From the NCBI RefSeq assembly GCF_026151205.1, contig NC_087076.1:18091419-18155418 (forward strand): a DNA stretch of 64,000 bases. The letters run 5' to 3'. The notes under the pieces were generated by a model. The model made no database searches and was not told the origin of the DNA. It saw nothing but the letters and a program-made list of their open reading frames with translations. This document shows, in pieces, positions 1,503 to 62,401 of the stretch. This stretch comes from Bolinopsis microptera (lineage: Eukaryota; Ctenophora; Tentaculata; Lobata; Bolinopsidae). Every line of letters starts with the position of its first letter. The stretch's first letter is position 1. A program made the translations under genes and the position numbers.

Positions 1503-4500
1503 TCACGAGAACTGAGCATTAGTAGATTTGATCCTTGAAACCAACGAATTTATTTGATTATCACTGAAATAGAAAAATGTTATGAACAAATAACAGACTA
1601 GGTTCTCATAACTAAACCAACATGCACAACTTTGTTAAAGAGATCATGAAGTGTAAATTTGCGAATTCTTCAAAAATACTCGAAACTTTGGTAGTGAGCT
1701 AGGCTTGATAATTCTGCCGCAATCCCAAAATAGCTCCGTCGTAATTGCTTCACAAGCTGAGATAATATGGGGCATATCAATTACATTTTTCCAAGTTGCG
1801 GCTAGGTGACAGGATAGCATATACGACATGTGTAAAAACACCTGATTTTAATCGTCCATAAAAAGTTTTCTGTTGGTTATTTTTTTGAACCGACAAGATT
1901 ACCATCAGGTATAAACCATTATATTTCACATATCTTCCTAAATTTGGTGTACAGCGATTAATCTAGTTCCTACAAGCAATTAAAGGCAGCTCACTTCATG
2001 GAACTTGAATGTAGCACGAAATCCTGGAATAATAGCTTAATTTTAATGCCATCATGTGCGGCTGTGTTTCAGCTATCTTCATGCACATTTTGCTGATATG
2101 CCAACGAAATTAACTTGCTCAAAATTCAAAAAACATGGTTTTTTGGCATATTTTTGGCCCAAAAATCGGTTTTTTGCGATTTTACCTGGGGAAACTCAGA
2201 CTTATCATTTCAAAACCACGTTTAATCGATTCTTCGGTCAAAAGTACGTCTAGAAAGATGTATGTGGAGTCCCTAGCGTATCGAGCAGAAAATGCCCGTA
2301 AGAGCTTTTACTAGTAAATCTATAAAACAATTATTTGACGCTTGTGTATATTATGCACATTATACAACCACAATTTTCGAAAGATAAAAGTCAAATCTAT
2401 CAAGTGTCGTTAATTTGAAGATTTTATCAAATAAATCGGCGCCACAGCACATGAATAAAAATGTGCATTTTAACACTGTTTCTATTGCGGTGTCTGACAG
2501 TTAGCCGCAATCCAACAAAATAGGGCGATCTTCCAGTATCGATTTCACGCGACATAATTAAGTTACGAATCTTGGAATTCCGAGCCCTATTCTTATATTA
2601 CTGTTTCTATGTGATAGTATATGTGAAATGTTTTGACGATTAAGTCGGGGACACTTCATGATCCCTTTAACAAAGGAAATGACATCTTTTAAAGCAAATA
2701 TTCATCAAAGAACTTCTAGAAATGTAACTTACTTTTCTTTAAGAATAGCCCTAACACGGTCCTGCTGCTCATCAGACAGCGAGGGCAGGTTTTTACCAGT
2801 TTTGTTCTGGAACTTCAATTTCTGATGAAGTTGCTCAGCGTCCTGTTTAAGGGATTTAAGGGACCGGGACATTGAGTGCATCTCTTCTTTGAAGGATAGC
2901 TCAGCTGAAGATAAGTCAGGGAGCAGGTTTTGAACTTCTCGCATCACACCGGATACTCTGTGATAGTTGGGCGTTAACCAAAAATGTTTATTGTAAAACC
3001 GATATTAACAGTTTGCAATTAGAATTTAGATGGGAATCATCCGTCTCATCCGTTTCGGTATATGCATTCCAATTTCCAGGGAATGTATATACCGAAACGG
3101 AAAAGTAAAAAAATGATTATAGTTCTCATCCTAACGAAGAAGAATGCCAAAGAAAATTAAAGCAACCTAATTCCAGATATAAATTTGAATGTAAATGATG
3201 AACTTACCGCTGTCTCAGCAGTTGCTGGCGTTTTGATATTCTGCTTGATCTGTCGCAGAGTTTTTCTGATTCACCCGCTAACTCTGACACGGAGTTTTGA
3301 AGTTCTGATAACTCACTCTTGTGCTGAGTTTGTTGTTCCTGCGGTGCAAGTTAGCGGTTAAAGTTAGCTGACAAAGTTAGCAGTTAAAGTTAGTGGACAA
3401 AATTAGCGGTCAACGTAAGCAGCAAAGGTTAGCGGTCAAAGTTAGTTAATAAAGTAAGCAGTAAAATTACTTAAAAACAATAAGTTACTGTTAACAAGAT
3501 CTCATAAAAATGAGAGGCAGATTTTGGGATTTAGATTGTGGGGGAATCTAGTAAGCAGCGAACATATTAATTAGTTTCGATGTTCCTTAATGAAAACAAT
3601 CTAAATCACTGACATATTACATCAATACCTGTAATAATGACATGTGATGGAGCAGTTCTCCTCTAGCCTTGCTCTGTTTAGCGATGTACTCTTCCCTAAA
3701 AACTTGCGTGCTCTTCATGAGAAGTTCCAGTAACGCTTTCTGGGACATCCCCGCACTGTTGCCACACCTGAACATGTTAATGGAAGTTAGGATCGTGTCC
3801 GAGAGTGATATTAATTCAGAGTGGCAGTATTTCCTGTATATTATGCAAGTATATTATTATATGCAGCTAACTGTTACCTTAACAAGGGGTTACTGATGTT
3901 CCTAGCCAGTATTCCCTGTAGCTTCTGACTGAACAGTTGAGAGTGGACTTGTTTCATTGGACTAGCACAGTGTGAGGATTTGTCTCCGCCTGATAACAGG
4001 GGTATCTCTTCTCGGTGTACCGATCTAATTGGGATCAGAAATAATTAGATGGTTTTAATAAGATGGTTTTAATTAGATGGTTTTAATAAGATGGTTTTAA
4101 TAAGATGGTTTTAATTAGATGGTTTTAATTAGATGGTTAATTGTAATGTGATGATATATTGAACAGGTGACCTTATTTTGCTAACTGAATGTTAATAAAC
4201 ATTGAACACGTTGGTTGTTGAGATTTAGTAAACCTGATAGGTAGAGATATAAACTCAGCGTTGCTGATGAGGACGAGTAGGTGAGCACCTAACATTGGGT
4301 CCTGGACTACAGTGCTGCCAAACAGACAAGTAGGGTCCCCGGCTCCCACCGGCTGCACACACAACATGTGCTCAGCAACACACTCACACTCCAGGTTGAG
4401 CTCACCGTCCTCTGCTGTCAAGATAGAGTGATTACTGATTAGTGCAGTGGGATTTAGTGCAGTGGGATTTAGTAGAGTGGGATTTAGTAGAGTGGGATTT

Positions 4501-7500
4501 TGTGGAGTGGGATTTATTGGAGTGGGATTTATTGGAGTGGGATTTATTGGAGTGGGATTTAGTAGAGTGGGATTTAGTGTAGTGGGATTTAATGGAGTGG
4601 GATTTAGTGGAGTGGGATTTAGTAGAGTGGGATTTAGTGGAGTGGGATTTAGTGGAGTGGGATTTAGTGGAGTGGGATTTAGTGGAGTGGAATTTAGTGG
4701 AGTGGGATTTAGTGGAGTGGGATTTAGTAGAGTGGGATTTAGTGGAGTGGGATTTAGTGGAGTGGGATTTTGTGGCGTGGGTTTTTTTGGAGTGGAATTT
4801 AGTGGAGTGGGATTTTGTGGAGTGGGATTTAGTGGAGTGGGATTTATTGGAGTGGGATTTAGTGGAGTGTGATTTAGTGCCGTAATTTTATATAGTTTTG
4901 TATAAGATAAGTAAAGTTTTGCCATCACGGAGGGTAGACATTTTAGTATGTACTGAGGGTAATAATAACCCTCGTGCTGGTCACACATATTCGTATGAGG
5001 TCTCAGGTAAGTGTCAGAACTCCCTGCACTGGAGAGTTGAGAGTCTCGTATTATATTTGTGCACGTGAATGATTGTCGTAACAACAGCATAAAAACAAAC
5101 ATACCTTTTACAAAGTGCTCTAGACGTTGAACTGCGGGAAGAAAAACACTGTGTATTCCGGTATTGTGCCGGACAAAATACCGGTCTCGAGCAGTGGGAT
5201 CAGGGATCAGACTGATAGCACTGACATCCTCGTCACTACTTTGTGTACACGTGCTCTCTCCTTCCTCCTCCACTAAATCTGGTAGCTCTATTTCAACTGT
5301 CTCCAGCAGGTACAAACACTCCTCTTCTTCAACCTGTTATAAACGTCAGATAAAAGCACTAGCAGCTATAGATTCTGCATATTATTTCTTTTATCCTGGT
5401 TTTATTCTCAAGCGTTATGGATAAACCATATACGGTAACCTGACCACGGACATTAAACGCACGGTTGGTAAACATTAAAAAGTTACTTAGCACAAGGTTA
5501 AGGTCAAAGTCTACCTCAGAGTCCTGAAGAAGAGCCAAGTGTTGGAGAGTACCAGAAAGTGTAGCAACGGCAAGAACAGGAGGGTTGGACTGCAAACACA
5601 GAATAGAACAAGCATCTAGTTCGTAATTCTCGTTATCGGGAGGCAGAACTTTTAAAGGTCCTCTCAGCTCACTCCTAGAACTGCAATAAGAAAGATCTGT
5701 TACAAAAATGTAATTTGATAACTTCATGACACGACTGATAAGATCAATAACTGAAAAGAGAGTAAACATCAAATATTCAGCTTTTTAGTAAAAAAGAAAT
5801 AACAAAACTTACGTTCTATTATTATTTAATGGGAGACTTAAAGTAAACACATCAGAATTTTCCTCCAAAACAAATACAGTAACAGCTTCTTCCCCTTCGA
5901 CCACTGGCCCAAACGTAAACGAAACCATACTCCCTGAAAGCAAGTGTAAAGGATGTAAAATAGGAATATATGCGTGAAAATAAAAACATTTAAAGATAAG
6001 AATCAAGACACTTCCAATATAAATTCAGTCAATTAAAAATGCGTATAAACTGAATGAGCCGTAGAAATTCCTTAGCCGTAAAGTTTCAACCAATCAGTCA
6101 CAGCTCAATTATTCGTATGAACAATCCACTGAACAAATCACTGAACAACAAACAAAGCACTGACCAGCTTGCGCGGATAGCAAAGATGGGCCGGCAGACA
6201 CGTTTAGGCAGTGTAGATAAGGTATGATACTGTCCGTGTTGAAGAGGGGGTAGCTTGCAATTGCACAGGCTGGCTCCTCCGTGGAGTACACTCTGAGGAT
6301 AAATTATGATAGTAACCATAGTAACTATGAGTAATGATAGTAATTATTATAGTAAAGAAATTTCGTTTCATTTTGTAAAAAAAAACATAGCAGACCATAG
6401 GTCATATTATTGTTTAACAAATTGAAACAAAATATAGAAAGTGAAACCGAAAATAATTGTCATATCGTGACAAACAACCTCAAAATATTGTCTGAAGTAA
6501 GGGCGACGAGGTGAGTGTCCTCAGTATGTCCAAAGTGCCACTTAACATCAGCCGCCGATATCTTCGTATGTCCTTGAAAAAATCTGGCTGCAATGAACGT
6601 ACACCTGATAAACAAAGCTGTTAAATTATAGCCGATGGTTGCAAGAAGCATCCCCTAGACATCTAACGTCTCCATTCTCAGACAGATATTAGTTTTATGA
6701 TTTATCGGACAAGAGAATTAATTCAACACAGCATTATATAGGCAAGATCATGGTCAACATGCCGCAATACCTGTTGACTTCTCTTAAATGAACTAACTGT
6801 AAAGTGGTCCCATTCCGACAGTCGAAACTTATACATATGAGTATTGCTGAAAGCACAGTGTAAGGCCTACACGGACCGCCTCTAACTAGCCAATCCCTGT
6901 TTACATGCCGTGTAGCTAGCAGGGGACTATGACATGTAGGTGCAATTAAAGTTGAAATTTTGGCTCTAAACTCCCCGAGATTTTTTCTGATACGAGATTG
7001 GGGACGGGTTCTATAAACAATTAACAAACATATTATACAATAAGCACAAGGTTCACAATTCAAGAGATCGATTTAATAGAAGCGGCAACGCAAAAACGCG
7101 GCTCTACGGTGCAACCAAATTGTTTGCTACCAAGATAAAATGACTTCGCGCGCTACAAATACTGAACAATAATTTTGGACAGTCAGAAGGACTTTCTACA
7201 AAATTGTACCAAATAAAATGGTCGAAAATCAAGTGTTTTAAAAATAACATAGAAATACAAATTTCTTGAAACTTTTCAGATAGAAAAATAATTATAATAG
7301 CAATAATCTGTGAGAGTTTGGGCGAATTTCTATGTGCGAAACTTGAGATATCACTTCAAACACAAGGAAATATCTTCAAATTGGTGGTTTTGAGTGGTAC
7401 TAAGGTATTTATCTCGAGATCATGTTGATCAATTTTCTTTAAACTTTCCAGATGGTAAAAAACAAGTCGTTTAGCTTATACGAACGGCTATCACAGTATC

Positions 7501-19500: not shown

Positions 19501-21267
19501 GCCTCGTATGGAATGATCCGCCAAACAAAAAGCCTGGTACAAACTTCCATTCGATTAAAAAAATAAGATTATAAGGATAGAGCGGGATAGAGCATGAGAT
19601 TACCTTTAATTCTCTTTGCTGCTTGCTGAGAGCGATTTCTCTTGATGCATTTTCCTCCACTAAATTAACATTTTCCTCGACTAAATTATTTCTCTGAAGA
19701 AATGACTGAATTATTATTGAGCAGTTCGAAAGAATTAATTCACTGTAATCGTAGACTTATTTCTATAATTTCAATTAAAGAGTTTGGCATTATATAAAGA
19801 AAATTTGATATGGAAATTTGGCGCTACCTTTTGTTCATATTTTTGATAAAATTTACCCTAAAAGTCAAACGATTTTTTATCTTGTACTAACTTTATCAAG
19901 AAGGTCATGATAATGCCGCTTCAATCGTTGAACTTCGTGTTGTGGTGGCTGATCTGCAATCAGATTTTCTAATCTTTCGATTTCGCATTGCTTGTTCTTC
20001 ATATCTTCTCTCAATTCGTCCAGTTGGATTCCCTGTTCCTCAAATTGAGCTTGACAACTTTCAGCTTCTTTTTGTCTGTCTTTGATTAATTGAGAAAAAG
20101 CTTCCTCATCTTCATCTTGTACAATAATTTCCGCATTGATTTTATCAATCTTGGCTTCAAAGCCTGCTTTGATTTCAGGAAAAGCATTATTTTCAACTTC
20201 AAGGGCCTCATGCTCTTTATTGAGTCGATCATTTTCTTCAGTAAGTCTTTTCACTGTACCCTCAATATCGAGTTCTTTTAAATACTTTTCCTTGGAATCA
20301 TCATTTGCTGTGTCACCAGTTTGGAAGTCTCGGTAGTGTTTAGCTGAAATAATCTGATGCCTTAATTCTTCTTCTGCCTCTTCCTCTTCTTTACAATTGA
20401 TGGTATATACTTGGGAAATATGTGCCGCCTCGTAATCTGTCATTTGGATGATATTTACGAGAAATGCGAGAGCTTCAAGAAGATACGGCCAGCTAATAGG
20501 ACTGCCAACAGGTTTGAAATAACTTTCCTTTAACTGATAAGGATACGACAAATCATTCATTAATCCCATGACATCACTTGACAGTCTAGTGATTTCAAAG
20601 CCAGGATACCAATCCAGAATAATAAACCGCAATACTTCTTTAAAAGTTGCCTCAGTAGGGTTCATAAGGTTTTTCCTTGTCAAAACACTGGGGTATTCTT
20701 TGTCGATCAGAAATTCAAGAATGTCTTTGACATTCTTCTTCACATTGCTTTTTGCATCAACTTTAACAAAATTGGACCCGATCGTTGATTGTCTACCAGC
20801 ATAAACTGAAGATATAACACAATCAATTTGCTTGCATCCAGCAGTTATCAGCAATACTCTAGTTTTTTTGAATAAAATCTGCATTTAGCATCATTTATTT
20901 GGCATGTATATTGTAATCAGATCGCTGAGAAATAAATTTAAGAACATGTGATATCCGACCAAATTAGATTGCTTAAACTTACTTTTCTGATGTCTTTAAA
21001 TGTAAAAAACAGGAAAAAAAAAGAGCCAATTGAAGGTTAACTGACTGTAGTGTTAAAAGTTTAGTTTGTCCACCGATGAAATTCCAACAAAACAAACTAG
21101 TATTTTTATTTGTTGGCTTATTGTGTACCCTAACCTGACTGCCGAGAAACAGAAGGTCTTGAAATTGACTGTCTGGATACTGAGGGTCTACTAGTTGAAG
21201 GACGTGATGTTGACTGTCTTGATGCAACAGATTTCCGTGAGACACTTGGTCGAGGAAGTTTCGACAT
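16538..21267 (-). CDS. NDC80: Kinetochore protein NDC80/HEC1
   Basis: Microtubule-binding subunit of the outer kinetochore NDC80 complex. Seven exons on minus: 21267-21135, 20805-19892, 19693-19604, 19461-19315, 19159-19041, 16987-16834, 16696-16538. They total 1716 nt, 571 residues, all in phase (human 642, so the loop or a coil segment may be shorter here). The N-tail of about 45 residues is almost only Ser/Arg/Gln/Pro with repeated SRPS-VSRQS units, basic and rich in R-x-S sites of the type Aurora kinases use. The calponin-homology domain follows ([38 protein letters not shown]). The rest is long coiled coil with a duplicated NLVEEN unit in exon 3. The 2-kb intron 5 contains a complete lipase gene on the other strand. 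Start chosen as the first ATG, just before the basic tail. Confidence 0.85.
17290..18866 (+). CDS. Acid lipase (lysosomal/gastric lipase family)
   Basis: Three exons, 17290-17542, 17832-18084 and 18209-18866, in phase, giving 387 residues (family about 400). It has a signal peptide (residues 1-16). The N-terminal domain carries the AB_hydrolase-lipase hallmark ([12 protein letters not shown]) and the oxyanion strand [11 protein letters not shown]. The nucleophile elbow is GHSQGS with Ser157. The acid lies in [11 protein letters not shown] and the histidine in YNHVDFIWG, all at the expected spacing for LIPA/LIPF enzymes, which hydrolyse cholesteryl esters and triacylglycerols. The last exon holds the cap domain with conserved Cys residues. 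The whole gene lies within an NDC80 intron (16988-19040) in antisense orientation, so expression of the two genes could interfere. LIPA is the nearest named relative, but orthology is not proven. Confidence 0.88.
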
Positions 21268-35789: not shown

Positions 35790-38106
35790 TTAGATGTCCA
35801 AGACCATCCTGAGAATTCTGGCTGATCCAAGCAGAGCTGTCTTCTGAAGATTAGAGATGCTCAGATTGCAGTGGACTGCATCGAGGTGCTTACGAAAGTT
35901 TATGGTGACAGTTCCTAAAGCGCCTACCACCACTGGGACAATTGTAACCTTTCGTAAATTCCAGTTCTTCTTAATCTCTCTTTTTAGGTCTTGATAAGCT
36001 AGTATCTTATCTTGCTCTCTATCCAAGATCCGGGTATCTCCTGGGACTGCAACGTCGATGATGGTTGCTGCGTTGGTTACCTTGTCTACCAGGAGAAGAT
36101 CCGGTCTGCAGTGCTCAATAACGTGGTCTGACTGGATGTGAAAGTCCCACAATAGCTTGACTTTTTCGTTCTCCAACACCTTCTCTGCTCGGTGTTCGTA
36201 CCACTTTTTACTGCGTGGGAAGCCGTATTCCTTGCACAGACTCCAGTGCAATGCGGCAGCTACTTTGTCATGCCGACACTTATATTCTGTCTGTGAAAGT
36301 TTTGGGCACCCATTCAGTATGTGATCTATTGTCTCATAATGATTTCTGCAGAGTCTGCAGAGTGGAGAAGAGCCAGGTGTTTTGTCAATCTTATTCTTTA
36401 CATAGTTAGTCCTAAGTGCTTGGTCTTGGGCTGCTATCAACAATCCTTCTGTCTCCTTCTTCAAGTCTTGTTGAGTGAGCCAGTTCCAAGAGGTTATCGG
36501 ATCTGCTATACCCGTCATCTGCCTTGGAAACTGTCCGTGCATCACTTTAGTAGTCCACTTCTCCTTGCGTATTTCCTCGCGTTGTGTTCGGTCAGTATCT
36601 TTGTCTATCTCTTCACCCAAGAGTATCTTGTCTTTGACAAAGTAGTCCTTCAGAGCAATCAGTTCCGGGTCTCTACTCTTCATCACATAGGTGGTGAGTG
36701 CATTCTCCTCCCTCTTTACGACTTCCTCTATACTATGAAGCCCACGGCCACCAAGTTGACGGCTGACGTATAGCCGATCAACATCTCCTTGGGGATGATG
36801 AGCTCCATTTATCCTCATTAGTTTCCGGGTCTTGACGTCCAAGGCTTTGATTTCTCCAGTGTTCCAAGAAAGAATTCCAGCTCCATATCTTATCACAGGT
36901 ACAGCCCAGGTGTTAATTGCTTGTATACTATTCCTACCATGAAGCTGGGATTTTAACACCTTTTTGACTCTTCTGATATACTCCTTTGTGACAAGTGCTT
37001 TCATCTCTTTGTGTAGAATATTATTGGCTTCTAGTATTCCCAGATACTTATAGCCCCCGTCCTCCAACTCATGGATCTGTTCACCTGTGGGTAGGGTGAT
37101 GCCTTCAATAGCGGCTTTTGCTCCCTTCTTCACCTTCACCACGGCGCATTTCTCTAGCCCGAATTCCATTTTTATGTCACTGCTGAACTCTGCTGTGGTA
37201 TTAACCAGTGTTTGCATTTCGTCTTCACTCTCGGCATACAACTTGAGGTAGTCCATGTATAGCCTATGCGACACTTTTGGTCCATCATTTCTGTCCAGAG
37301 AGTATCCTATGTCGTGCTTATTCAAAAGAATGGAAAGGGGTATAAGACTAATGATAAAGTGGATAGGGGAGACTGAGTCTCCTTGAAATAAACCTCTATT
37401 AATTTTAATCCTCCCAAGGGAAACTTTACCAAGCATCAGGTTAACATATGATTGATTGAATGAGGCTTCAAAGAGGTCTATGATGGATGATGAGATACCG
37501 CACATGGTCATACAAGACAGGATCCAGGAGTGTGGGACGCTATCATACGCCTTCTTGTAATCTATAAACGTCATGTTCAAGTTCCGCTTCCTTCGTTTAC
37601 AATTCTTCAGTATAAGTTTGTCTATCATTAACTGTTCTTTACATCCTCTGCTCTTCTGCTCAGGGGGGAGGAGTTTCTGTTGGTCTAGGTGGTAGTAAAT
37701 GGAATCTGAGATTAGCCCAGTGAACAATTTCCACATTGCTGATAAGCATGTAATTGGTCTGAAATTGCCTGGGATGGGTCCCTTGGAATGATCCTTAATG
37801 AGCAGGTACGTGCGACCCAGTGTCATCCATTCTGGGATATCAGCATTGGACAGGCAATTCATCAGTTGATCTGCAATCCTATTGTGGAGTTCTTTAAAGT
37901 GCTTTATCCAATAAGCATGCAGTCCATCTGTACCAGGGGAGGACCAGTTGGTCATTTTCTTCACTCTATCTGCAACCAGGGTGTTAGTTATAACAAACTG
38001 TCTCTGTTCATCTGCTGAGGCTAATGCTGTTCTGACATCTGGTAACCATTCAGCATCGCTGTTATGTTCAACCGGCTTCTCCCATATGTTCTTCCAGAAC
38101 TTCAAA
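35790..38106 (-). pseudogene. R2-like LINE protein, RT and restriction-like endonuclease part
   Basis: About 770 open codons on minus. The RT domain has WSSPGTDGLHAYW, FRPITCLSAMWKLF, IDYKKAYDSVPHSW (motif A) and RGLFQGDSVSP. The palm motif that should be MDDLKLYA reads YMDYLKLYA, so the second catalytic aspartate is Tyr. Downstream are YKYLGILE, GGRGLHS, a CRLC...H...C zinc-knuckle and a restriction-like endonuclease core (RPDLLLVD...ATIIDVAVP) as in R2/R4-type elements. The first residues at 38107-38126 come from the LTR border. Otherwise intact, which implies a fairly recent copy, but it is predicted unable to polymerise. Confidence 0.8.
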
Positions 38107-38110
38107 CAAG

Positions 38111-39230
38111 TGTAAGCAGTGGACACTTGCTTCTCGGTTCGAAGTTTATTTGCATTTAATTAAGGGTTTGGACAATGGAAACGAGCGTGATACTAAAAGG
38201 TACACAAAATTAAACTATGAAACAACACAATGAATAATCCGACAACCTCTACTTCAAATCCTAATTAACCAGACTCGTATCGCCTATAAACGCCCAGCGA
38301 TCTAGCGAATAGGGTGAGAATACAAACAAGGGGTATAATAAAGGTACCCAAGGTACTTAACTGAAGTTAACTCTAGATGCCCGGGCTCTTACTCTTAATC
38401 TAGCTTTACCTGTCTAAGTCAACCAGTGCTGACTATTCCTCCCGGGCTCTTATTCTTAGTCTAGCTTTACCTGTCTAAGTCAACCATTGCTGACTATTCC
38501 TCCCGGGCTTTTACTCTTAATCTAGCTTTACCTGTCTAAGTCAACCAGTGCTGACTATTCCTCCCGGGCTCTTATTCTTATTCTAGCTTTACCTGTCTAA
38601 GTCAGCCTGACTGCAAATGCCTCTATCCTGATAATAGTAACTACGTAATGCTCTACTATTAGATGACCGCCAATATTATACTGACCACTATAACCATCTA
38701 CCTAACTGAACGACCTGACCTTAACAGGTTCTAGCTACAGAACCTGCCCGGTATCAACATGACCCCCCTCTCGATCGGGTAAACTGGCACTCCTCTATCT
38801 CAAAAGGCTAATCGTATTTTCCTCTCGCCCCTGATAGTCTAAACAATCTACCATTTCCCGGGAATTGCAAACTGTCCTGTCGATAGCCACAACATTGTAA
38901 CACTAGTATTCTGTAAACACTCCATAACTCAACCTCGTACTGACCCAAACATATGTTAAACTGACCTCTCTGCACTTAAACTGCAATAACTGTCGTATAC
39001 TAATATATGCCCAAAATACTACCGTCACATACTGGACACCACGACCGCCTTATTATAATCATTACACTATCTACATATTACACAATATTACCCTAAATTC
39101 ATCTCAATTAATCACTGCTTACACAACTTTACAAAATATGTTCTTTCATAGAACCTTACTATACTGGTACAATAATTTAATGGAAAATCTCTTACTATAG
39201 ACCATATCTCTTGCCCGGTCACGGCTTACA
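38111..39230 (-). repeat. 3' LTR (left copy)
   Basis: Matches 51037-52326 over most of its length. It differs in the middle, where it carries four roughly 65-bp units (CCCGGGCTCTTATTCTTAGT type, about 38379-38610) and lacks the segment at 51230-51420 of the other LTR. Confidence 0.75.
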
Positions 39231-40849: not shown

Positions 40850-42300
40850 AATCATGTGATTTTTTCTGCACTTGACACTCACTGATTTGGTCACTTTCAG
40901 TTGTTGCCGTTCTCCGCCAATCATAATCTGATCATTCTCTATGTCTAATGATACCCCCAGTTGCTTCATGCTACATCCTCCAAAACAAAAACTCAAGTTT
41001 CTCTCGACTTCGCTGACCTTTTCCTTCAACTCTTCAGGTATTGACTCTAAGAATGTGTTCAACCAAACATCACCACACACATTACTGGTTGTCCCAGTGT
41101 CACTCAATACCTTGTTCAATGTCTCATTGACTAACAGCACTGTCTCACAGTAGTCATTGTCAATTTTGTTTGATTCTTTACCATTCCTGCACGACTGATA
41201 CATACACACTGAGCCCGAATCCTTCTTTCGAACATCATTAACATTGGGATTATGTTGACAATCTGCCCGGAAATGCTTATTTGAATCACAAATTGAACAT
41301 CTTGCTACATCGCCTGTTTTGTGACTGATAGCATTTAACTCATCTTTGTAGTCTGAGTTATTCCTTTCTTTTGAATTGAGCTGTTTGTCTCTTTCCCATG
41401 GTCTGCTGTAATTTCCAGATCTCCCTCTGCCATTGGAGTAATTGTTATAACCGCCAGAAGAGAACGATTTCCTTCATCCTTGTCCTCGATTATTGTATCC
41501 TTGATAGAATGTATATTCTCCGTTATCACCACCGATATCAGTATCCTTTTCATCAAACTGACCCCTATGGTAAAGCACATCCGATCCAGGTTCTACCTTA
41601 ATCTTCACTGTGTCTAACTCCAGTCTGGATCTACGACAGAAAACAGCGTCACCGAACCACCTCTTCAAACATTCCTCAATTGCTTTACTCGTCAACTTTT
41701 GAGTCCCCATTGCAGCTTTGATCAATATCTGTTGATCTTTGGTCAGGGTGGCCTGAGTTAACAACCTGTATGCCAACATACCATCATGATAAATTTCTTT
41801 CTTGTAATTAACAACTCTCCGATCCGGTTCAATCGTTTCTTGAACTCAGCGATATATTCTGTCATTTGCATTTGTTCCGGTCTAACAAACTTTTCTAGAT
41901 GATCAATACCTAGAAATATACTCTGAGTATATATCTAAATATACTCTAAGCGTGTTGCAAAATCTCTTGCCTTGAAATCCTGGATCCTCAAGACACACAC
42001 TGCAGCCTGCTTAGCAGCTGCTATCGAAGTTCCCAACTCCCAGATGCAGACCTCACGTTTCCACTTCAAGTATTCCATCCCCTCTGTCGACAAAGGTGGT
42101 TGGTCTCCTCCCATGTCTTATCAGTTCTTCTACCTGCTACCAATGATAAATTTCTTTCGTCCATAGCTTTCTGTACAAGAGGATCTTGCCCTCTTTGAAG
42201 ACCTCCTCGGCCACCGTGTCTTTGCGTACAATCCATTGCAATATGACCCTGTCTCCCGCATCCATAACAAGTGGGGGCTTTCTACATTCCTTTGCGAAAT
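40850..42300 (-). pseudogene. Gag nucleocapsid and protease remnant
   Basis: On minus the first recognisable block (42300-42160) encodes two CCHC zinc knuckles (CGQHGHFAKEC and CYGCGRQGHIAMDC) separated by a frame change. Then comes a helical segment (41779-41474), a further Cys-His box (CSICDSNKHFRADC, about 41300-41260) and an aspartic-protease-like core LSDTGTTSNVCGDVWL (about 41100). Stops and frame changes separate the pieces. No RT follows. Confidence 0.6.
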
Positions 42301-42423
42301 GTCCATGCTGTCCACAGGTGTAACCAGCACCGATGTTTTAATACTTTCAACACTACTATATAACAAATAATTTGAGGTATGACCAAAGTAATACGAATGT
42401 AATACGAATGTAATGTTAATGGA

Positions 42424-44343
42424 ATGGAACAAATCTCACATGTGAACTCTTCAATTTGCTTCAATTCAAATCAACAACTTAATCCAAATCATCAACTCAA
42501 TATCATGGACGATTCAATGGAAACATTTTTTGGAAAACTATTGTCGGAATGTGATCAAAAATGCAAAAACTGTACTGCACTCAAATCTCATGTCAAGTTT
42601 CTCGAGCGGAAAGTGATCATCCTAGAAGACATTGTTCAAACTTCTCAGACTATAGCAGAGATTAATGGTACGTTGTTACATCAAAGTACCAATCAGTCAA
42701 TAGATTATCGGGCTGTCCTGGATAGGTGTTCAGATGTTGCAGTTCAGACAGAATTTGAAAACGGTCAGATTGAATATGACAGTGAATGCGAGGTGCCTGA
42801 ATCTTTCATGCTAATCAATAGTGATGGCATCATTGAAGCACCAGATTCTATCATTTCCAACAACACAGAAAATCAAATCAGTGGGAGTACAGGATCTGTC
42901 AATCCATGGAGTGGCAAGTATTATGCTGAAATAGATGTAACACCCATATCTAGTGTGGCCTTAAGTGTAAATGACGAAAGCCCTGACATTATCATACCAC
43001 CTGTTGAACTCATTGATCAGGCACCGTTTCAAAAATTCTCCTTAGACATCTTCCTGAGAGAATTGGATTTTAGCCACCAGTTTCAAAATAGGAAAACAGC
43101 TTACTTTGGGGACTTCCCATATGTGTATAATGGGGGAAGTCACGAGGCGAAGGAGATACCACATCAGTCCTATCTGGCTGCTATCTGTTCATATCTTGAT
43201 GTGTTACTCCCGGATTATGTTTACAACAGTGCTCTCGTAAACTACTACAGTACTGGGACAGAATGCATGCCTATCCATAGTGATAATGAAGAATGCATCG
43301 ATGAAAACTCTTATATTGTTACAGTTTCTCTGGGTGCCTCTAGGACGATGCAGTTCACAGAAATTCAAACAGGAAAAGTGGTGTCTGCCCTAGATCTAAA
43401 GCATGGGGATGTTTGTATCATGTCTAAAAAATCCCAGCTTCATTACAGACATGAAATCTGTACTCAACCATCCTGTACAAACAAAAGGATCAGTATCACA
43501 TTCAGACTGATCAAACCTGTAGCTGTTGTCCAAAGATTAACAAGTACACCAACCAACATGTGCAATGACAATTACCATGACCCATATGAAAACATCTCCA
43601 ACTCCAGCGGCTATGTACCTTATCAAGAAGACGAGTTTATAGTTCATCCATCAAGGAAAACGAATGGTGCTTATCAGCACCGACCTCTAACCCCACCCTA
43701 TACATCTCCACCACCCCATCTGCATCAATCAGGGCGGCATGTTAACAGACAACAATTGTTCGAAAAGGAGACACCCAACGATGTGAGCACAGTTTACATC
43801 AGCAGCAGCATCTTCAGGCATCTGAATGAAAAACTGTTGAGCTCTTCATCTCAGAAGGCCAAAGTATTTTTCTACCCAGGGGCCAACTCAATCCAAATGT
43901 CCCAAAGACTCTTTAGCGACAGTCAGTTCAAAGTTCTCAACAAAGAAAAGGTTAAAAAGGTTGTTTTACTAACTGGTACTAACTGTGTTGATCCAATTGA
44001 CCTCAACACAATGAACTTCAACAGTGCCACCAATGACATGGAAGAATTTGTTCAAAAATTGTGGGCAGAATTTAATAGTGCAAAAATATATATCTTAAAT
44101 ATTCTGCCTAGAGCTGTCACTAGTAAGAACATTATAGTGCAGGGACTTAATCGATACTTAGAGAATATGTGTTATAAGCATGGGCTCATATACATTAACA
44201 CAGAACATGAAAATAATCTCTTTACTTTAAATTATAATAGAAAGGACAAGTATTTTGGCAGGGGCCATGACAATGTGCACCTTAATAAGTTAGGAATTGC
44301 CAGGCTTGGTAAGCATCTCAAATATGTAACTCACTTGTGTTAA
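42424..44343 (+). CDS. LINE ORF1: AlkB-like dioxygenase plus SGNH esterase
   Basis: 639 residues, uninterrupted. Residues 40-80: short Cys cluster (CDQKCKNC) and a coiled-coil-like helix. Residues about 205-365: AlkB-type 2-oxoglutarate/Fe(II) dioxygenase, with the iron ligands H285-x-D287 in MPIHSDNE, the distal His in HYRHEI (H343) and the R-x-S-x-T-x-R signature R355-R361 (RISITFR). SLGASRTMQF matches the double-stranded beta-helix strand that is usually SLG-x-R-x-F. Residues about 455-635: SGNH hydrolase with the likely Ser in YISSSIFRHL (about 460), Gly in YPGAN, Asn in LLTGTN (520) and the D-x-x-H pair HDNVHL (616/619). A Pro-rich linker joins the domains. Esterase domains are known in CR1 ORF1; the AlkB domain is the surprise. 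Predicted role, by inference: oxidative demethylation of element RNA or cDNA. Confidence 0.8.
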   Translation: MEQISHVNSSICFNSNQQLNPNHQLNIMDDSMETFFGKLLSECDQKCKNCTALKSHVKFLERKVIILEDIVQTSQTIAEINGTLLHQSTNQSIDYRAVLDRCSDVAVQTEFENGQIEYDSECEVPESFMLINSDGIIEAPDSIISNNTENQISGSTGSVNPWSGKYYAEIDVTPISSVALSVNDESPDIIIPPVELIDQAPFQKFSLDIFLRELDFSHQFQNRKTAYFGDFPYVYNGGSHEAKEIPHQSYLAAICSYLDVLLPDYVYNSALVNYYSTGTECMPIHSDNEECIDENSYIVTVSLGASRTMQFTEIQTGKVVSALDLKHGDVCIMSKKSQLHYRHEICTQPSCTNKRISITFRLIKPVAVVQRLTSTPTNMCNDNYHDPYENISNSSGYVPYQEDEFIVHPSRKTNGAYQHRPLTPPYTSPPPHLHQSGRHVNRQQLFEKETPNDVSTVYISSSIFRHLNEKLLSSSSQKAKVFFYPGANSIQMSQRLFSDSQFKVLNKEKVKKVVLLTGTNCVDPIDLNTMNFNSATNDMEEFVQKLWAEFNSAKIYILNILPRAVTSKNIIVQGLNRYLENMCYKHGLIYINTEHENNLFTLNYNRKDKYFGRGHDNVHLNKLGIARLGKHLKYVTHLC

Positions 44344-44634
44344 ACTTCATTAAAATTCTATAATCCAAGGGTATCAACATGAATAATAACAGGATTACTG
44401 TTTTATCTGGTTTAAAATGTTAGATCAGCACAAATTTCTAATAACTTAACGTTTTTATATCTCTCAAGCTATATTTATCACAAACAGAAGTGAGTTACTA
44501 TTTTATGCTGTTAAATTTTATGATTTAAACTGCAGTATAATTGCTGATCCGAAATCCAATTTAAATCATATGTATGACATGATTTGAAACTTAGTCTACT
44601 TGGGGAGACTGCATGTGGATTTGTTCCCCATTAG

Positions 44635-47631
44635 CTTTGGTTTAACCTTATTCGTACCTCAATAAACGATAATCTCTCTCTTGGTCTATGTAATATACAG
44701 GGTGGCCTGACTAATCTGGCAAAAACTCTCGAACTACAGGAGCTAATATTTCGCGAAAAGCTTGACATAATTGGAATTAATGAGACAAACCTTAAATCTG
44801 ATATAGACACTAGTACACTTAACTTCCCCTTAAACTTTGATTTTATAAGGTGTGATAGACCTAACGATAGAGGAAGAGGAGGGTGTGGTATATTGATCAA
44901 CCAAAATGTTAACCACAAATTACTCAATTTAGATATAACCTACTCTGATATTTCTAAAATCGAAGCTATATGGATACAACTCAAGGATGCCAATCTTTAC
45001 ATTTGCTGCTTCTACAGATCACAAAACTTTTGTCACCTAGATACTTTCCTTGATTATATGACTGAATGTATGATGAAACTTCAAGGTAAGAAAGTAATAT
45101 GGATTGGCGATGTTAATGTTAACCAAAACTCTTTATCTGATCTAGATTATAAAAAGTTAGATATAACAATGAAGCTCTTTGGAATGATACAGACTGTTAC
45201 AGGAATTACTAGAGTTGCAAACTTAGATGGTAGAATAACGCAGAGCACAATAGATGTTGTCATGACTAACTGTTACTCTAATTTCATGGAGTGTAAAGTA
45301 CTTGATGATAGAATAGGAGATCACCAAGCTCTCAAATGTGTTCTTGACTTTAAAGTCAATAAAGCTAGTAAATTCCAGAAGGTCCTTATCAGAGACCACT
45401 CCTTAAACAATCTAAAAGCCTTAAGCTATTCTCTGGGATCCTGCAGTAACTACAGTAATATTCTAAGCTGTACTAATGTAGACCATGCCCTAGATGGACT
45501 TAATCATCACATCCAGGAATCGTATGATAATTACTGTCCACCTAAACAGATTAAGTGTAATAGTAACTTTCTTTGTAATCCCTCTAAAGTACTGTTGGCA
45601 GAAATACGGAAGAAGAAGATGCTTTTCAGAAAGTATAAAAAGTGTTTAGGACAATTTAACAAATTCAAGTGTAAGTGTATTAATGGAATATGTAAATGCA
45701 GAAAAAGTGAACTACATAAGAAATGCTCTACTTCGTGGGATAACTATCGTCCCCAAAGAAACTATGTGACAAAATTATCCAAAGAAAACAGACGTACAAA
45801 TATTGTTCAGGACCTTACTGTGAAAAGTGCAAAAAACGATTTGAAAGGTATTTGGAAAACTATCAAACATGCTTCAAACTTACCTGGAAAAATAAGTAGC
45901 TCTTCCCCAAGCAACTTAAATGTTAATGGAGTTAACCTGCATTTTGCCACAGTTGGTACAATAATACAAGAATCAATTAAGGAAAAGGATTCAGACGACT
46001 TCCTAGAATATATGCCGCCTCCAACAGAGTGTAAACTCTCTGTATTCGAAGAGGTGACTGTTGAACAAGTAAAAGAATATATACTCAGTATACCATCAGA
46101 TAAATCGATTAACGATATCATGCCCATCAAAGTATATAAGTATATTATTCCCCAAATCATCGATCCAGTAGCTCATATTATAAACCTTAGTATGAAAAGT
46201 GGAACAATGCCGTTGGCATGTAAAATTGCATCAGTCACTCCAATTCTTAAAACTGGTGACCCTAATGATCCAAATAACTACCGGCCAATATCCATACTCC
46301 CCCTAATTGGAAAATGCATAGAATATTTTGTTAACCAACAGCTTACAGAGTATGTTGAAACAAATAAACTGCTTACCAACCATCAGTATGGATTTAGAAA
46401 AGATCATTCCACCACTTTTCTAATGCTTAATCTATTTGATAAAATATTTACGTCTAAGGAATCACAGAAGAAACCTGCAATTGTATTCTTAGATATTAAA
46501 AAGGCCTTTGACACAGTAAGCCATAATATTTTATTAAAAAAACTTAAGTATTATGGAGTTGATGGCTTTGTCATAAAGTGGTTCAAAAGCTACCTTGGGG
46601 ACAGAAAGCAGCACACCAAAATACGTGGTAATGTAAGCACATCACTCCCTGTTAAAACAGGTGTGCCACAGGGTAGCATATTAGGACCAATTCTATTTAG
46701 TTTATTCATAAATGATCTCAGTAGAAATTGCACACAATCTACTGTTTACTTATTTGCAGATGACAGTGCACTATATTTTGATAACATTTCCCGAGGCATA
46801 TATGAGAATGTAATTAAGGATATGAAAATTGTGTATGAATGGCTTAGAATCAACAAGCTGAGACTAAATGCTGCAAAATCTTCATTCATTGTATTTGATA
46901 GATCACCTAATCTGGACACGTTGTCAATCCCTCTGGATTTGGAAAAAGATTGCATATTTATAGAAGAAACTAAATCTCAAAAATATTTAGGTCTCATGAT
47001 AGACAATTTATTGAACTTTCAAGACCATATTGATTATGTGAAATCAAAAATTGCTAAAAGAATAGGGGCATTATACAGGTCGAAAAATCTTCTTCCACTG
47101 AAATATAGAAAAATGTTTGTAAATGCTCTTATGCTCCCCCAATTTGACTACCTGGATATAATATGGTGTAGGGCTGCCAAAACCAAACTTAATTCTCTTG
47201 ATATATTATACAAGAAAGTAGCAAAAATTGCTCTGGATGTTCATTGGCAGGAACCATCAGTAAATGTATATCGAAACATGAAGTGGTTACCCTTACACTT
47301 AAGAAGACAACTCCATCTATCAACGTATATGTATAAAATTCTTAATGAGGCTGCACCATCATCATTCACAGATAAATTTTCTTATGTATCCGGAGGATCA
47401 CGTGATGCTGAGAGGTGCAACCTTTATATTCACAAATCCAGAACACACAAAACCTTTACATATTTAGGTGCAAAATGTTGGAATACAATTCCAGAGAACA
47501 TAAGGACTATAGAATGTAGTGTAAAATTCTCACAATGTATGAAATCTAAATTTATGTCAGATGTAATTCAAGGAGTCTCATCCTATGCAATAAACAATAG
47601 TTTCGACTATTTCTACACTCTAGCTATGTGA
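44635..47631 (+). CDS. LINE ORF2: APE endonuclease and reverse transcriptase
   Basis: Open frame of about 998 codons after TAG at 44632. The first part has no ATG but is clearly coding: CNIQGGLTNLAKTLELQEL and IIGINETNL are the APE-type endonuclease start with its catalytic Glu. IWIGDVNVNQ, VVMTNC and GDHQALKC complete that domain. A Cys-rich linker follows. The RT runs about 46230-46800: NNYRPISILPLIGKC, QYGFRKDHST, VFLDIKKAFDTVSH (motif A), GVPQGSILGPILF and the intact catalytic LFADDSALY, then the thumb and a C-terminal region (KCWNTIPENIR) typical of CR1/Jockey-clade elements. No RNase H was seen. Lack of an ATG near the domain start suggests re-initiation, a non-AUG start or a small frame lesion between 44343 and 44635. 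Confidence 0.8.
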   Translation, partial: LWFNLIRTSINDNLSLGLCNIQGGLTNLAKTLELQELIFREKLDIIGINETNLKSDIDTSTLNFPLNFDFIRCDRPNDRGRGGCGILINQNVNHKLLNLDITYSDISKIEAIWIQLKDANLYICCFYRSQNFCHLDTFLDYMTECMMKLQGKKVIWIGDVNVNQNSLSDLDYKKLDITMKLFGMIQTVTGITRVANLDGRITQSTIDVVMTNCYSNFMECKVLDDRIGDHQALKCVLDFKVNKASKFQKVLIRDHSLNNLKALSYSLGSCSNYSNILSCTNVDHALDGLNHHIQESYDNYCPPKQIKCNSNFLCNPSKVLLAEIRKKKMLFRKYKKCLGQFNKFKCKCINGICKCRKSELHKKCSTSWDNYRPQRNYVTKLSKENRRTNIVQDLTVKSAKNDLKGIWKTIKHASNLPGKISSSSPSNLNVNGVNLHFATVGTIIQESIKEKDSDDFLEYMPPPTECKLSVFEEVTVEQVKEYILSIPSDKSINDIMPIKVYKYIIPQIIDPVAHIINLSMKSGTMPLACKIASVTPILKTGDPNDPNNYRPISILPLIGKCIEYFVNQQLTEYVETNKLLTNHQYGFRKDHSTTFLMLNLFDKIFTSKESQKKPAIVFLDIKKAFDTVSHNILLKKLKYYGVDGFVIKWFKSYLGDRKQHTKIRGNVSTSLPVKTGVPQGSILGPILFSLFINDLSRNCTQSTVYLFADDSALYFDNISRGIYENVIKDMKIVYEWLRINKLRLNAAKSSFIVFDRSPNLDTLSIPLDLEKDCIFIEETKSQKYLGLMIDNLLNFQDHIDYVKSKIAKRIGALYRSKNLLPLKYRKMFVNALMLPQFDYLDIIWCRAAKTKLNSLDILYKKVAKIALDVHWQEPSVNVYRNMKWLPLHLRRQLHLSTYMYKILNEAAPSSFTDKFSYVSGGSRDAERCNLYIHKSRTHKTFTYLGAKCWNTIPENIRTIECSVKFSQCMKSKFMSDVIQGVSSYAINNSFDYFYTLAM

Positions 47632-48049
47632 CAACTGAAACAAATTTTATGGTGCTGGAGTTTTTGTCTGGTGGAAAGGCCCCCTGCATTATATGACCTA
47701 TTTCTAGAAGTATAGAACTTTAAACATCTCCTTTATTCGTTCCCATTTGTTATCATTGCCATTCTATTATTGTTCTATACTTCTTTGTGTATAACTGTAA
47801 ATAACATTACTAACGTAATTCCAAAGTGGGCATCTATGTAATCTTAATTGTTACCTTCATGCCCACAGTTCACTGTTAAATCATATCTTATTTTATCACT
47901 CATTAATTTATTACTCATTATGTTTTACAAACTATATCCTTATGTCCCTAGAAGGGTGTTCTGCTAACAGTTTTCGACTGACTTGAATGTCCTGCACAGC
48001 AGATTGAAGCTTCTTAAATTATTTTTTATTCTTATTGTATTGCTGTGTA

Positions 48050-48920
48050 AATTTGATTCTAATTCTAATTCTAATTCTAATTCTCTTCTCGGCCGGTTCT
48101 CTTCCATCACTCGGTTTATCACTCCCTCATCCATCTCTATATCCTCCTCGATTTGAAACAAAAGTTCCTCCTCATTCTTCCCTGGTTTTAGGGCTACGAC
48201 TCGCCAGGATCCCATCCAACTTAACTGCCCTCTTTAGCGCGGCCTCAAAATCTTGCACTCGTGACTTGATTAACTCGATCCCGATTTCATCCTTTAATAC
48301 CCCAGCTGTAAATACATCTAGCCTGATGGTCTTCTTGATCTCCTCCTCCTCCGGTGCATATGCCTCATCTGCCATGTCAGTGACTCTAGCTGCAAAATCC
48401 GAAATTGTCTCTTCCTCTTTCTGATGCATCTCAAGAAGTCTCTTCCTGCACCCGCCTTTGAATGCACATCACATAGCACCTCTGTCCTCCTCTCCAAACT
48501 CGCCTCTACATTTCTCTTCTCGTCCCGGGTTAATCGTAGGGTCTCCACTCTCCTCTGTGCCTTGGGGTCCAAGTACGTCATTATCATGTCCACCAAGTCT
48601 TCATCCAAGATGTCCGCAGCATTGGCAAATATTTTAAACCCGCTCAGGAAGGTTCTAAAGCTGTGTTTCCCCAGCACCAACATCCGAGGTTTCATTAATG
48701 GGTATTTCTTACCCGCTGCTCTGTTCGCTTCTCTGATTCTCCTCTTTTCGGTCTCCTTCTCCTGCCTAGCTTCTAGCTTACCCTCTCTGAATCCATCTCT
48801 TCTTAGCTGTGCTCCCTGCTGCCTCAATTCATCATATTGAGTCCTTAACTCTTCGTTTGCTAGCTCAGCCTCCTGCCGCGCTCTCATCATTACCTCATTA
48901 GCTATCTTTATCCCTGCCAA
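48050..48920 (-). pseudogene. Gag capsid region of the LTR element
   Basis: Minus-strand frame from 48920: a long charged helix (residues 1-65, coiled-coil-like) then a capsid-type domain (FRTFLSGFKIFANAADILD, MIMTYLDPKAQRRVETL, ISDFAARVTDMAD, FTAGVLKDEIG). It needs two frame changes, near 48430 and 48205, to stay continuous. It ends at the LINE insertion near 48085. Ty3/gypsy-like gag by general form; exact clade unknown. Confidence 0.6.
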
Positions 48921-49345
48921 TTCCTCTCTCAGTGCCGCTTCCCTGACTCAAATTATTTGTTATATAGTAGTGTTGAAAGTATTAAAATAAAATACAAACA
49001 CTGTCTCTCTCTTCAACAGTTCCTCTCTCAGTGCCGCTTCCCTGACTCAAATTATTTGTTATATAGTAGTGTTGAAAGTATTAAAATAAAATACAAACAC
49101 TGTCTCTCTCTTCAACAGTGTACTAATTAAAATACAAACCCTGTCTCTCTCTTCAACAATGTACTAATTAAAATACAAACACTGTCTCTCTCTTCAATAA
49201 TGTACTAATTAAAATACAATCACTGTCTCCCTCTTCAACAATGTACTAATTAAAATACAAACACTGTCTCTCTCTTCAACAATGTACTAATTAAAATACA
49301 AACACTGTCTCTCTCTTCAACACTGTACTACTTACGATGCAAATA
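48921..49345. repeat. 99-bp duplication followed by about 41-bp minisatellite
   Basis: Two 99-bp units begin TTCCTCTCTCAGTGCCGCTT at 48921 and 49020. About six units of TGTACTAATTAAAATACAAA plus CACTGTCTCTCTCTTCAACA follow. This is the untranslated leader between the primer site and gag. Confidence 0.8.
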
Positions 49346-60859: not shown

Positions 60860-62401
60860 TCAGTGAGGCCACACACAAAGCTTGGGATTAGAATCAGGTA
60901 CAGGCAAACAGTAATCAAGGTCCTCACAGCCCGGTGGAGCCCAATTTTGCACTGCAACATCGCAATAGTTTAGGGACGGCACTCCTGGTACCAAGTTTGC
61001 TTTGTGCTCTTTAACGATGGGATCGATGGTTGCCATGGCAGCTTTGTATTCTTTACTTTTATTTTCGATAATATACTTTTCTCCTGGATCTCTATTAACA
61101 TTGAAAAGTATCGGTTTATCCGTGTGATCTATTTGGTCGTGAACTGTAACATTTTTGATGTATTGGCCTCTGCAGAAAGTGAACTTCATTGGGTTTTGTC
61201 CGTGCTGAGTCCACATCCAATAGTGTGCCTTGTAAGCGCCCACCCTCACTGCCATCATCTCGTTACCTCTGTAATACCATATAGGCCTGTCTATCACTGG
61301 GACTGACTGGTCCAGTAGAACTGGACTCAGGTCTATGCCGTCAATAATTCTGTCTTGAGGCGGTTTTACCCCCGCCAAAGTTAGACTGGTAGTAAAAAGG
61401 TCCATGATGTTTCCGAGCTGATGAGTAATGGTTCCAGCAGGGATTGAACCAGGCCACCAAGCTATCCCTGGTTCTCTCATCCCTCCCTCATATGTTGTCT
61501 CTTTTCCACACAAGAAAGGACCATTGTCTCCGCCTGCTGAACCTCTATAGGTAGCTGCCCCGTTGTCTGACGTGAAGAAGACAAAAGTGTTATTGTCAAT
61601 CCCTAACTCCTTCAGCTTCTCTAAGATCTTGCCTACACAGTAGTCCATTTCCATCACAGCATCTCCGTATCTTCCTCGGATGCTTTTCTCGAGGAACATT
61701 GGGCTGGCATAGTTGGGACCGTGTGTCGCGTCCGGTGTCCAGTAAAGGAAAAACGGATTTCCATCAGAGTGCACCTTTTCGATGAATGAAAGACCTTCCT
61801 GGAGAAAGATTTGGCTTACATTGGACAGTCCATCATTTCCAATGGTGAAGTTGGTGTAGTATCTTCCAACCATTTTGTCGTCTTTGTACACTGGCATGTT
61901 GGGTGTTTTAACATCGTTATATGGTCCAAAATGACAATTTCCTGAGCCAAAGAACTCATCAAATCCTCTTTTGCAGGGAAGGAACTGTCTCCTGTGTCCA
62001 AGGTGCCATTTTCCAATTATTTTACTTTTGTAGTCAGCCTCTTTCAAGAGTTCAGGAAGGAGCTGCTCGTATTCGTGAATACCACCGACAATAGTCTGAG
62101 GAGTGAAAGCGTTCCTAGCATGAGCGTTCGTTGAGTAAAATCCATTTCTAATAGGTAGTCTCCCCGTCATCAGAGCTGCTCTTGAGGGGGAACAGAGCGG
62201 GTTAGCTGTGTAAAAGTCCATGAACAACATACCTTCTGCCGCCATCTTGTCGATAAAAGGGGTTTCCTTAGCCCAGTTTCCATTGATCCCCACGTCACCC
62301 CAGCCCATATCATCCATCAGCATTATTATGATGTTTGGACGATCAACCAGGCAGTGCGAAACTGTCAGGCATAGAACCATGCATGACAGTCGTATTAACA
62401 T
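60860..62401 (-). CDS. GALNS: N-acetylgalactosamine-6-sulfatase
   Basis: Lysosomal sulfatase that removes 6-sulfate from N-acetylgalactosamine or galactose in chondroitin and keratan sulfate. One uninterrupted frame of 513 residues (human 522). A signal peptide covers about residues 1-17, with [15 protein letters not shown] opening the sulfatase fold (Asp30/Asp31 as metal ligands). Cys70 in CSPSR is the residue converted to formylglycine. [21 protein letters not shown] and [13 protein letters not shown] follow, and the Cys-rich C-terminus (NWAPPGCE) matches GALNS closely. Several N-x-S/T sites are present. The gene has no introns, unlike the intron-rich genes around it and the vertebrate gene, which suggests retroposition or intron loss. 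It is antisense to the EXOSC9 exon 460 bp away. Confidence 0.93.

Follow-up and report, generated by a model that had tools for sequence, protein, structure and literature searches.

A ctenophore LINE with an AlkB-type dioxygenase domain fused to an SGNH esterase in its ORF1, and related mobile elements of the same genome

We analysed a 64,000-nt stretch of the genome of the ctenophore Bolinopsis microptera (contig NC_087076.1, positions 18,091,419 to 18,155,418; hereafter, the window). It contains a full-length long interspersed nuclear element (LINE) whose first open reading frame (ORF1) carries an AlkB-type dioxygenase domain and an SGNH esterase domain in one protein, upstream of a second frame (ORF2) for endonuclease and reverse transcriptase (RT). 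This copy belongs to a group that we call family A. Its features, in window coordinates, are the following.

42335..48084, plus strand: full-length LINE of family A, about 5.75 kb, delimited by its 5′ end, by the stretch between 44618 and the tail that is 98% identical to family B, and by the hexamer tail
42335..42423, plus strand: 5′ leader, with three variants of its first part, two of which occur with both ORF1 types, A and B
42424..44343, plus strand: ORF1, 639 aa, with N-terminal helices, AlkB, linker and SGNH in this order
42574..42681, plus strand: predicted long helix, residues 51-86, possibly a coiled coil, at low confidence (predicted local distance difference test, pLDDT, <50)
42988..43524, plus strand: AlkB-type 2-oxoglutarate (2OG)-Fe(II) dioxygenase domain, residues 189-367
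43276..43284, plus strand: iron ligands H285-x-D287, inside H-S-D-N-E
43450..43452, plus strand: distal iron ligand H343
43486..43506, plus strand: 2OG motif R355-I-S-I-T-F-R361
43774..44334, plus strand: SGNH/GDSL esterase domain, residues 451-637 (S461/S462, G486, N520, D616, H619)
44649..44650, plus strand: edge of the ORF1 module, from the pattern of mismatches between A and B
44635..47631, plus strand: ORF2, 998 aa from stop to stop, apurinic/apyrimidinic endonuclease (APE)-type endonuclease and RT
44692..45135, plus strand: endonuclease match (Exo_endo_phos, E=6.3e-6) in ORF2
46255..46998, plus strand: RT match (RVT_1, E=3.3e-39) in ORF2
48056..48084, plus strand: 3′ tail (ATTCTA)n

An ORF1 followed by an APE-RT ORF2, a defined 5′ end, a repeat tail and dispersed copies identify the element as a LINE, and its 5′ end near 42335 is common to other copies that lie in different flanks. 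No target-site duplication was evident by eye around the window copy of family A. At the N-terminus of ORF1, helices are predicted at residues 32-46 and 51-86, both with a pLDDT below 50.

Against Pfam, ORF1 matched 2OG-FeII_Oxy_2 (E=5.6e-23, residues 243-361) and, under the curated cut-off, Lipase_GDSL_2 (E=8.1e-6, residues 484-624). Its closest solved relatives are human ALKBH3 (2.3e-9) and ALKBH2 (2.2e-7), matches that a family profile search improved to 3e-14 and 3.2e-10, respectively. The predicted structure contains the double-stranded beta-helix of the AlkB type and gives a strong structural match; among AlkB subclasses the nearest fold is that of ALKBH2/3, the best match being an ALKBH2 solved on DNA, and a first model made without the host ALKBH2 in the alignment still ranked ALKBH2/3 top. 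ALKBH2 and ALKBH3 share with the element domains the predicted fold, the cofactor residues and the H-x-D-[DNS]-E motif, which is present in 11 of 11 element AlkB domains, at identities of 21-32% to the human proteins. By this motif and its modelled fold, the ORF1 domain is predicted to belong with ALKBH2 and ALKBH3. The 2OG motif reads R-x-S-x-T-x-R in all 11 element domains and R-x-N-x-T-x-R in the four cellular ones (two human, host and E. coli), so that in this small set Ser for Asn separates element from cellular AlkB domains. The C-terminal part has an SGNH fold with its Ser, Gly, Asn and Asp/His blocks, as in esterase-type (type IV) ORF1 proteins. An "ORF1-encoded protein" (4c1b), which we take to be the ZfL2-1 esterase, was the weakest of 48 PDB matches (E=0.93), and a full-length VIA search returned no LINE esterase among the matches listed, which is uninformative either way. 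An earlier note on this DNA, made from the letters alone, had already reported AlkB signatures at residues 285-361 and SGNH motifs at about 455-620 in a single frame upstream of an APE-RT ORF2. All of these were recovered here, and the structural match to AlkB, which that note had set beforehand as a refutation test, proved to be strong.

How far does this arrangement extend? In the whole genome (264.65 Mb in 232 contigs, of which C1-C13 each measure 15-26 Mb) the ORF1 protein has at least 97 matches, a lower bound from 69 scored candidates out of 810. Copies of family A are about 99% identical and comprise eight full-length open frames plus one starting at residue 40. Family B (14 rows) is 59-60% identical to the window ORF1, and family C (29 AlkB rows) is 50-53% identical in AlkB and 35-39% in SGNH; the remaining rows are fragments and SGNH rows. 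Residues N273, Y275, H285, D287, H343, R355, S357 and R361 are kept at 50 of 50 loci (9 A, 14 B, 24 C, the partial relatives L010 and L025, and L026), within one frame at 49 loci and split over two frames in L026. L027 (38% identity, 22 stops) and L028 were excluded from the ligand counts. Moreover, the iron triad and the 2OG residues are kept in ten element lineages (A-J), which are 21-66% identical to each other. Of the 28 loci whose frame spans the SGNH residues S461/S462, G518, N520, D616 and H619, 27 have the full set; B_L016 carries N520D, and L010 drops out of frame there. The earlier note had considered that the ligands might be lost in most copies, or that other copies might lack the domain. 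Neither was seen among the copies read, and a one-off fusion is rejected, since AlkB-SGNH recurs in families A, B and C and in further frames. Decay to pseudogenes in most copies is unsupported among the copies read, which were mostly picked for open frames; a decayed locus (L027) and broken ones (L010, L026, L028) do exist.

Selection was examined as the ratio of nonsynonymous to synonymous changes within families (pN/pS) and between sequences (dN/dS). Among the nine copies of family A, the AlkB domain has 7 synonymous changes and 1 nonsynonymous (pN/pS 0.04, one-sided Fisher p=0.0002), the SGNH domain 10 and 7 (0.19, p=0.0006) and the N-terminus 5 and 15 (0.8, p=0.41). Among 13 copies of family B, the SGNH domain has 14 and 11 (0.22, p=0.0001) and the N-terminus 9 and 39 (1.23). 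Between the B subfamilies represented by L014 and L011, dN/dS is 0.28 for AlkB (p=0.008), 0.26 for SGNH (p=0.002) and 0.50 for the N-terminus (p=0.047). Between families, where synonymous divergence is near saturation, AlkB gives dN/dS of 0.155 for A-B (dS 1.47), 0.14 for A-C (dS 2.85) and 0.21 for B-C (dS 1.84). Purifying selection thus acts in family A and between the B subfamilies, and on the whole the enzyme domains are constrained while the N-terminus drifts, the AlkB domain of family B alone falling short of significance.

Comparison of families A and B uncovered an exchange of ORF1, seen at window 44649-44650 and in copies L011-L024. Between A and B, the ORF2 proteins are 97.6-98.4% identical (the rows B_L013x and B_L019 of this comparison being one place, counted twice), whereas in a typical pair the ORF1 proteins are 59% identical. 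Measured on DNA in 200-base steps, identity stays at 48-78% as far as 44533, rises to 84% in the step containing the edge and is 96-100% between 44734 and the tail; past the last mismatch before the conserved part, at 44649, none follows until 44910. Synonymous divergence between A and B is 0.036 in ORF2 against 1.2-1.5 in ORF1 (N-terminal and AlkB parts), whereas two A copies are 94-100% identical from 42534 to the tail. Exchange of ORF1 between two LINE families by recombination or template switching, with either one as the donor, explains this pattern and, judged by ORF2 divergence, appears to be recent. Exchange of ORF1 modules is already known in the Jockey superfamily, according to the accessible text of PMC4120745; the A/B pair displays such an event between LINE families with its edge resolved to the base. 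The 5′ leader variants also reassort between A and B copies: of the three variants of its first part, that of A_L005 matches B_L013 and B_L024, and six of the nine A copies have one that also occurs in B_L014, among others.

AlkB domains are found in mobile elements well beyond these families. A search of the genome with PF13532 gave at least 151 matches (150 of 587 candidates scored); of the 149 rows tabulated, 144 belong to frames of 350 aa or more and six to frames of 2000 aa or more, with recurring lengths of 551, 593, 676 and 707 in addition to 611, 644 and 646, the lengths seen in families A and B. Outside families A-C, the frames read were six long ones, a portion of a giant one and a probable host gene; some of the frames outside this sample may be host genes. 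Two of the long frames are AlkB-SGNH (L053, 551 aa; L054, 593 aa), three are ORF1-like and combine a PHD-like finger, AlkB and SGNH in one protein each (L055, L056 and L057, of 676, 706 and 779 aa) and one has AlkB and SGNH separated by a long linker (L058, 843 aa). The AlkB match is well above the cut-off in all six, and the PHD (0.004-0.007) and GDSL (4.9e-7 to 0.004) matches are all under theirs; in L056 the SGNH part is recognised by its motifs alone, Pfam giving nothing for it. Downstream of L053, L054, L056 and L058, endonuclease and RT matches were found in every case, and these ORF2s are 50%, 25%, 24% and 21% identical, respectively, to that of family A, in a comparison whose ORF2/RT tree covers elements of this genome only. 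Therefore, several LINE lineages carry an AlkB ORF1. The giant frame (L059/L061, C10:16873700-16884300, 3,388 aa) has SGNH (3.8e-6) and then AlkB (2.2e-21) on its N-terminal side and continues into Helitron_like_N (9.3e-23) and PIF1 helicase (6.1e-22), matches by which it is a predicted Helitron Rep/helicase protein with SGNH and AlkB. It is the sole AlkB frame above 2000 aa that was read, minus its last stretch; the PF13532 search holds five others, of 2,225-3,366 aa. The PHD variants, the Helitron variant, the scale of the phenomenon and the ORF1 exchange go beyond what the earlier note expected.

Where do these domains come from? The host has an ALKBH2 gene of its own (L060), which shares 50% identity with human ALKBH2 and 22-30% with the element domains. 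A tree built from 15 domains parts the eleven of elements from the four cellular ones on long branches, at a support of 67/88 that is too weak to decide between one capture and several. A fold search of BFVD found many viral AlkB folds (15-29% identity among the 50 matches listed, E down to 8e-14), and scanning IMG/VR with the AlkB alignment yielded 20 pattern matches, none of them confirmed as a relative. We tentatively suggest, as a possibility short of a probability, that AlkB plus SGNH could be a travelling cassette, which mobile elements of this lineage acquired in one or a few captures, which module exchange then spread to Helitrons and to LINE clades unrelated to each other, and which was kept for repair of single-stranded RNA or DNA intermediates. 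If so, it would be a natural, element-encoded partner of RT that cleans the template.

Why would a LINE encode an AlkB domain? The reading that we prefer, with moderate confidence, is that of an intact and recently multiplied LINE whose ALKBH2/3-class domain, accompanied by SGNH, is probably active and would clean the element's own nucleic acid; its substrate and role we infer from sequence and predicted structure. LINE ORF1 proteins are generally RNA-binding, and this one would bind the RNA of its own element. Its AlkB domain would use Fe(II), O2 and 2OG to demethylate the pairing face of A and C, both in that RNA and in the single-stranded DNA formed during copying. ALKBH2 and ALKBH3 are the enzymes of 1-methyladenine (m1A/1meA) and 3-methylcytosine (m3C/3meC), and PDB titles of the matched structures name 1meA and 3mC. 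Helitrons pass through single-stranded DNA and may profit from the same enzyme, the shared need being clean single-stranded nucleic acid. As such methyl groups would stop RT, their removal would raise the yield of full-length copies. The element-borne AlkB would thus do in the cell what AlkB treatment does in sequencing methods, where groups of the m1A/m3C type hinder reverse transcription and AlkB removes them (accessible text of PMC7969016 and PMC7968990). For the SGNH part, a membrane or lipid function is probable, after the role proposed for the zebrafish ZfL2-1 esterase (PMC3905857, accessible part). The claim of the earlier note, that this LINE encodes an AlkB-type demethylase domain, came through all three of its refutation tests, activity being predicted. 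The presence of AlkB in a large guild of animal LINEs, and in a Helitron, would mean that methylation of nucleic acid, be it damage or a mark set by the host, constrains retrotransposition so strongly that an enzyme removing it is selected for. Whether the RT of the element yields more on methylated RNA with the help of the element-encoded demethylase is a question open to direct test.

The main rival to protection of the element's nucleic acid is that the domain erases regulatory marks, N6-methyladenosine (m6A) in RNA or 6-methyladenine (6mA) in DNA, and that the element thereby evades silencing by the host, in line with the proposal made for an orchid Gypsy element. The weak PHD matches in three related ORF1s hint at contact with chromatin, and the ALKBH5-like protein of this orchid Ty3/Gypsy element has m6A demethylase activity in vitro, according to the text accessible for PMC9289625. 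Nevertheless, we regard mark erasure as rather unlikely, and, since the modelled fold and the motif are of the ALKBH2/3 class, protection appears to be a better fit than erasure of m6A-type host marks. Repair of DNA at the insertion site, on the single-stranded flaps of target-primed reverse transcription, agrees with the best structural match being an ALKBH2 solved on DNA and with the Helitron protein, which points to a DNA substrate; the usual RNA binding of LINE ORF1 proteins speaks against it, and the present results, which do not separate DNA from RNA, leave it in our judgement improbable. Some ORF1 domains act as binding modules, but it is very improbable that the AlkB domain owes its retention to folding or nucleic-acid binding without catalysis, given iron and 2OG residues preserved across ten such divergent lineages, beyond what binding needs. 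To an artefact, in which a host ALKBH gene or retrocopy lies by chance next to a LINE, we give practically no credence: it is ruled out by the separate host ALKBH2, so much closer to its human counterpart than to the element domains, and by the recurrence of the fused frame in all of families A, B and C, at numerous sites and, where copies were compared, in differing flanks.

Several points weigh against the protective role that we favour. The loci were mostly picked for long open frames, which biases ligand conservation within families, and the 20 short pieces of family C amount to only 8 distinct peptides. In family B the AlkB domain has 4 synonymous and 7 nonsynonymous changes (pN/pS 0.48, p=0.2, not significant), and the four copies of family C show one AlkB change in all, synonymous. 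As for the fold, the alignment behind the second structure model included the host ALKBH2 row, and E. coli AlkB, which also acts on m1A and m3C, scores no higher than the m6A erasers in the fold comparison; therefore, the substrate is not fixed by fold distance.

Parts of this arrangement have known counterparts. AlkB domains occur in RNA viruses (Alpha- and Betaflexiviridae, Closteroviridae and some Picornavirales), where they likewise belong to a protein of the self-replicating RNA itself and have close predicted folds, but lie in replicase polyproteins; we know of no viral AlkB with an RT or esterase partner. The esterase-type ORF1 of CR1, L2 and RTE/RTEX elements, such as zebrafish ZfL2-1, likewise places SGNH upstream of ORF2. 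Esterase ORF1s are known from several clades and animal phyla, and the domains that the accessible texts on type IV ORF1 name are CCHC, RRM, PHD, coiled coil and esterase, with no AlkB among them (PMC3905857, PMC4120745). The orchid Ty3/Gypsy element is likewise a retrotransposon that encodes an AlkB-family protein, with its activity demonstrated, but it is a plant long terminal repeat (LTR) element with an ALKBH5-like protein in a separate ORF, whereas here a domain of predicted ALKBH2/3 class is fused with SGNH in a LINE ORF1 (PMC9289625, accessible text). Fish Helitrons carry SGNH hydrolase genes (texim) related to CR1 esterases; the part of PMC4021074 available does not mention AlkB, whereas here SGNH and AlkB are inside the Rep/helicase frame. 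What is already known thus comprises ORF1s with esterase or PHD domains, exchange of ORF1, Helitrons associated with SGNH, and AlkB both in RNA viruses and in an LTR element. As far as can be told, a LINE ORF1 that combines AlkB with SGNH, and the spread of this type, are new: no LINE or Helitron with AlkB was found among the listed titles, abstracts and passages of the open-licence literature, a scope outside which lie Repbase and most subscription papers, so that an earlier mention is possible.

Elsewhere in the genome, PF10613 of the glutamate-receptor family has 32 matches, several of them in frames longer than 900 aa, and the one that was read is nearest to animal kainate receptors. The surroundings of the window copy hold other elements and genes. 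Minus-strand frames at 41474-42281 and 48172-48920 flank the LINE, one of them with a CCHC-like knuckle recognised by eye, and the LINE seems to be inserted inside a gag-like element. At 48921-49119 a 99-base unit is repeated in tandem, as two exact copies, and includes a stretch of the LINE's own 5′ end in reverse orientation. A retroelement of another type lies on the minus strand at 35790-38126, with a 778-aa frame matching RVT_1 and, weakly, zf-RVT. Also on the minus strand are the host-type genes Nup88 (4173-5315), Ndc80/HEC (19877-20884) and a sulfatase (60860-62401).
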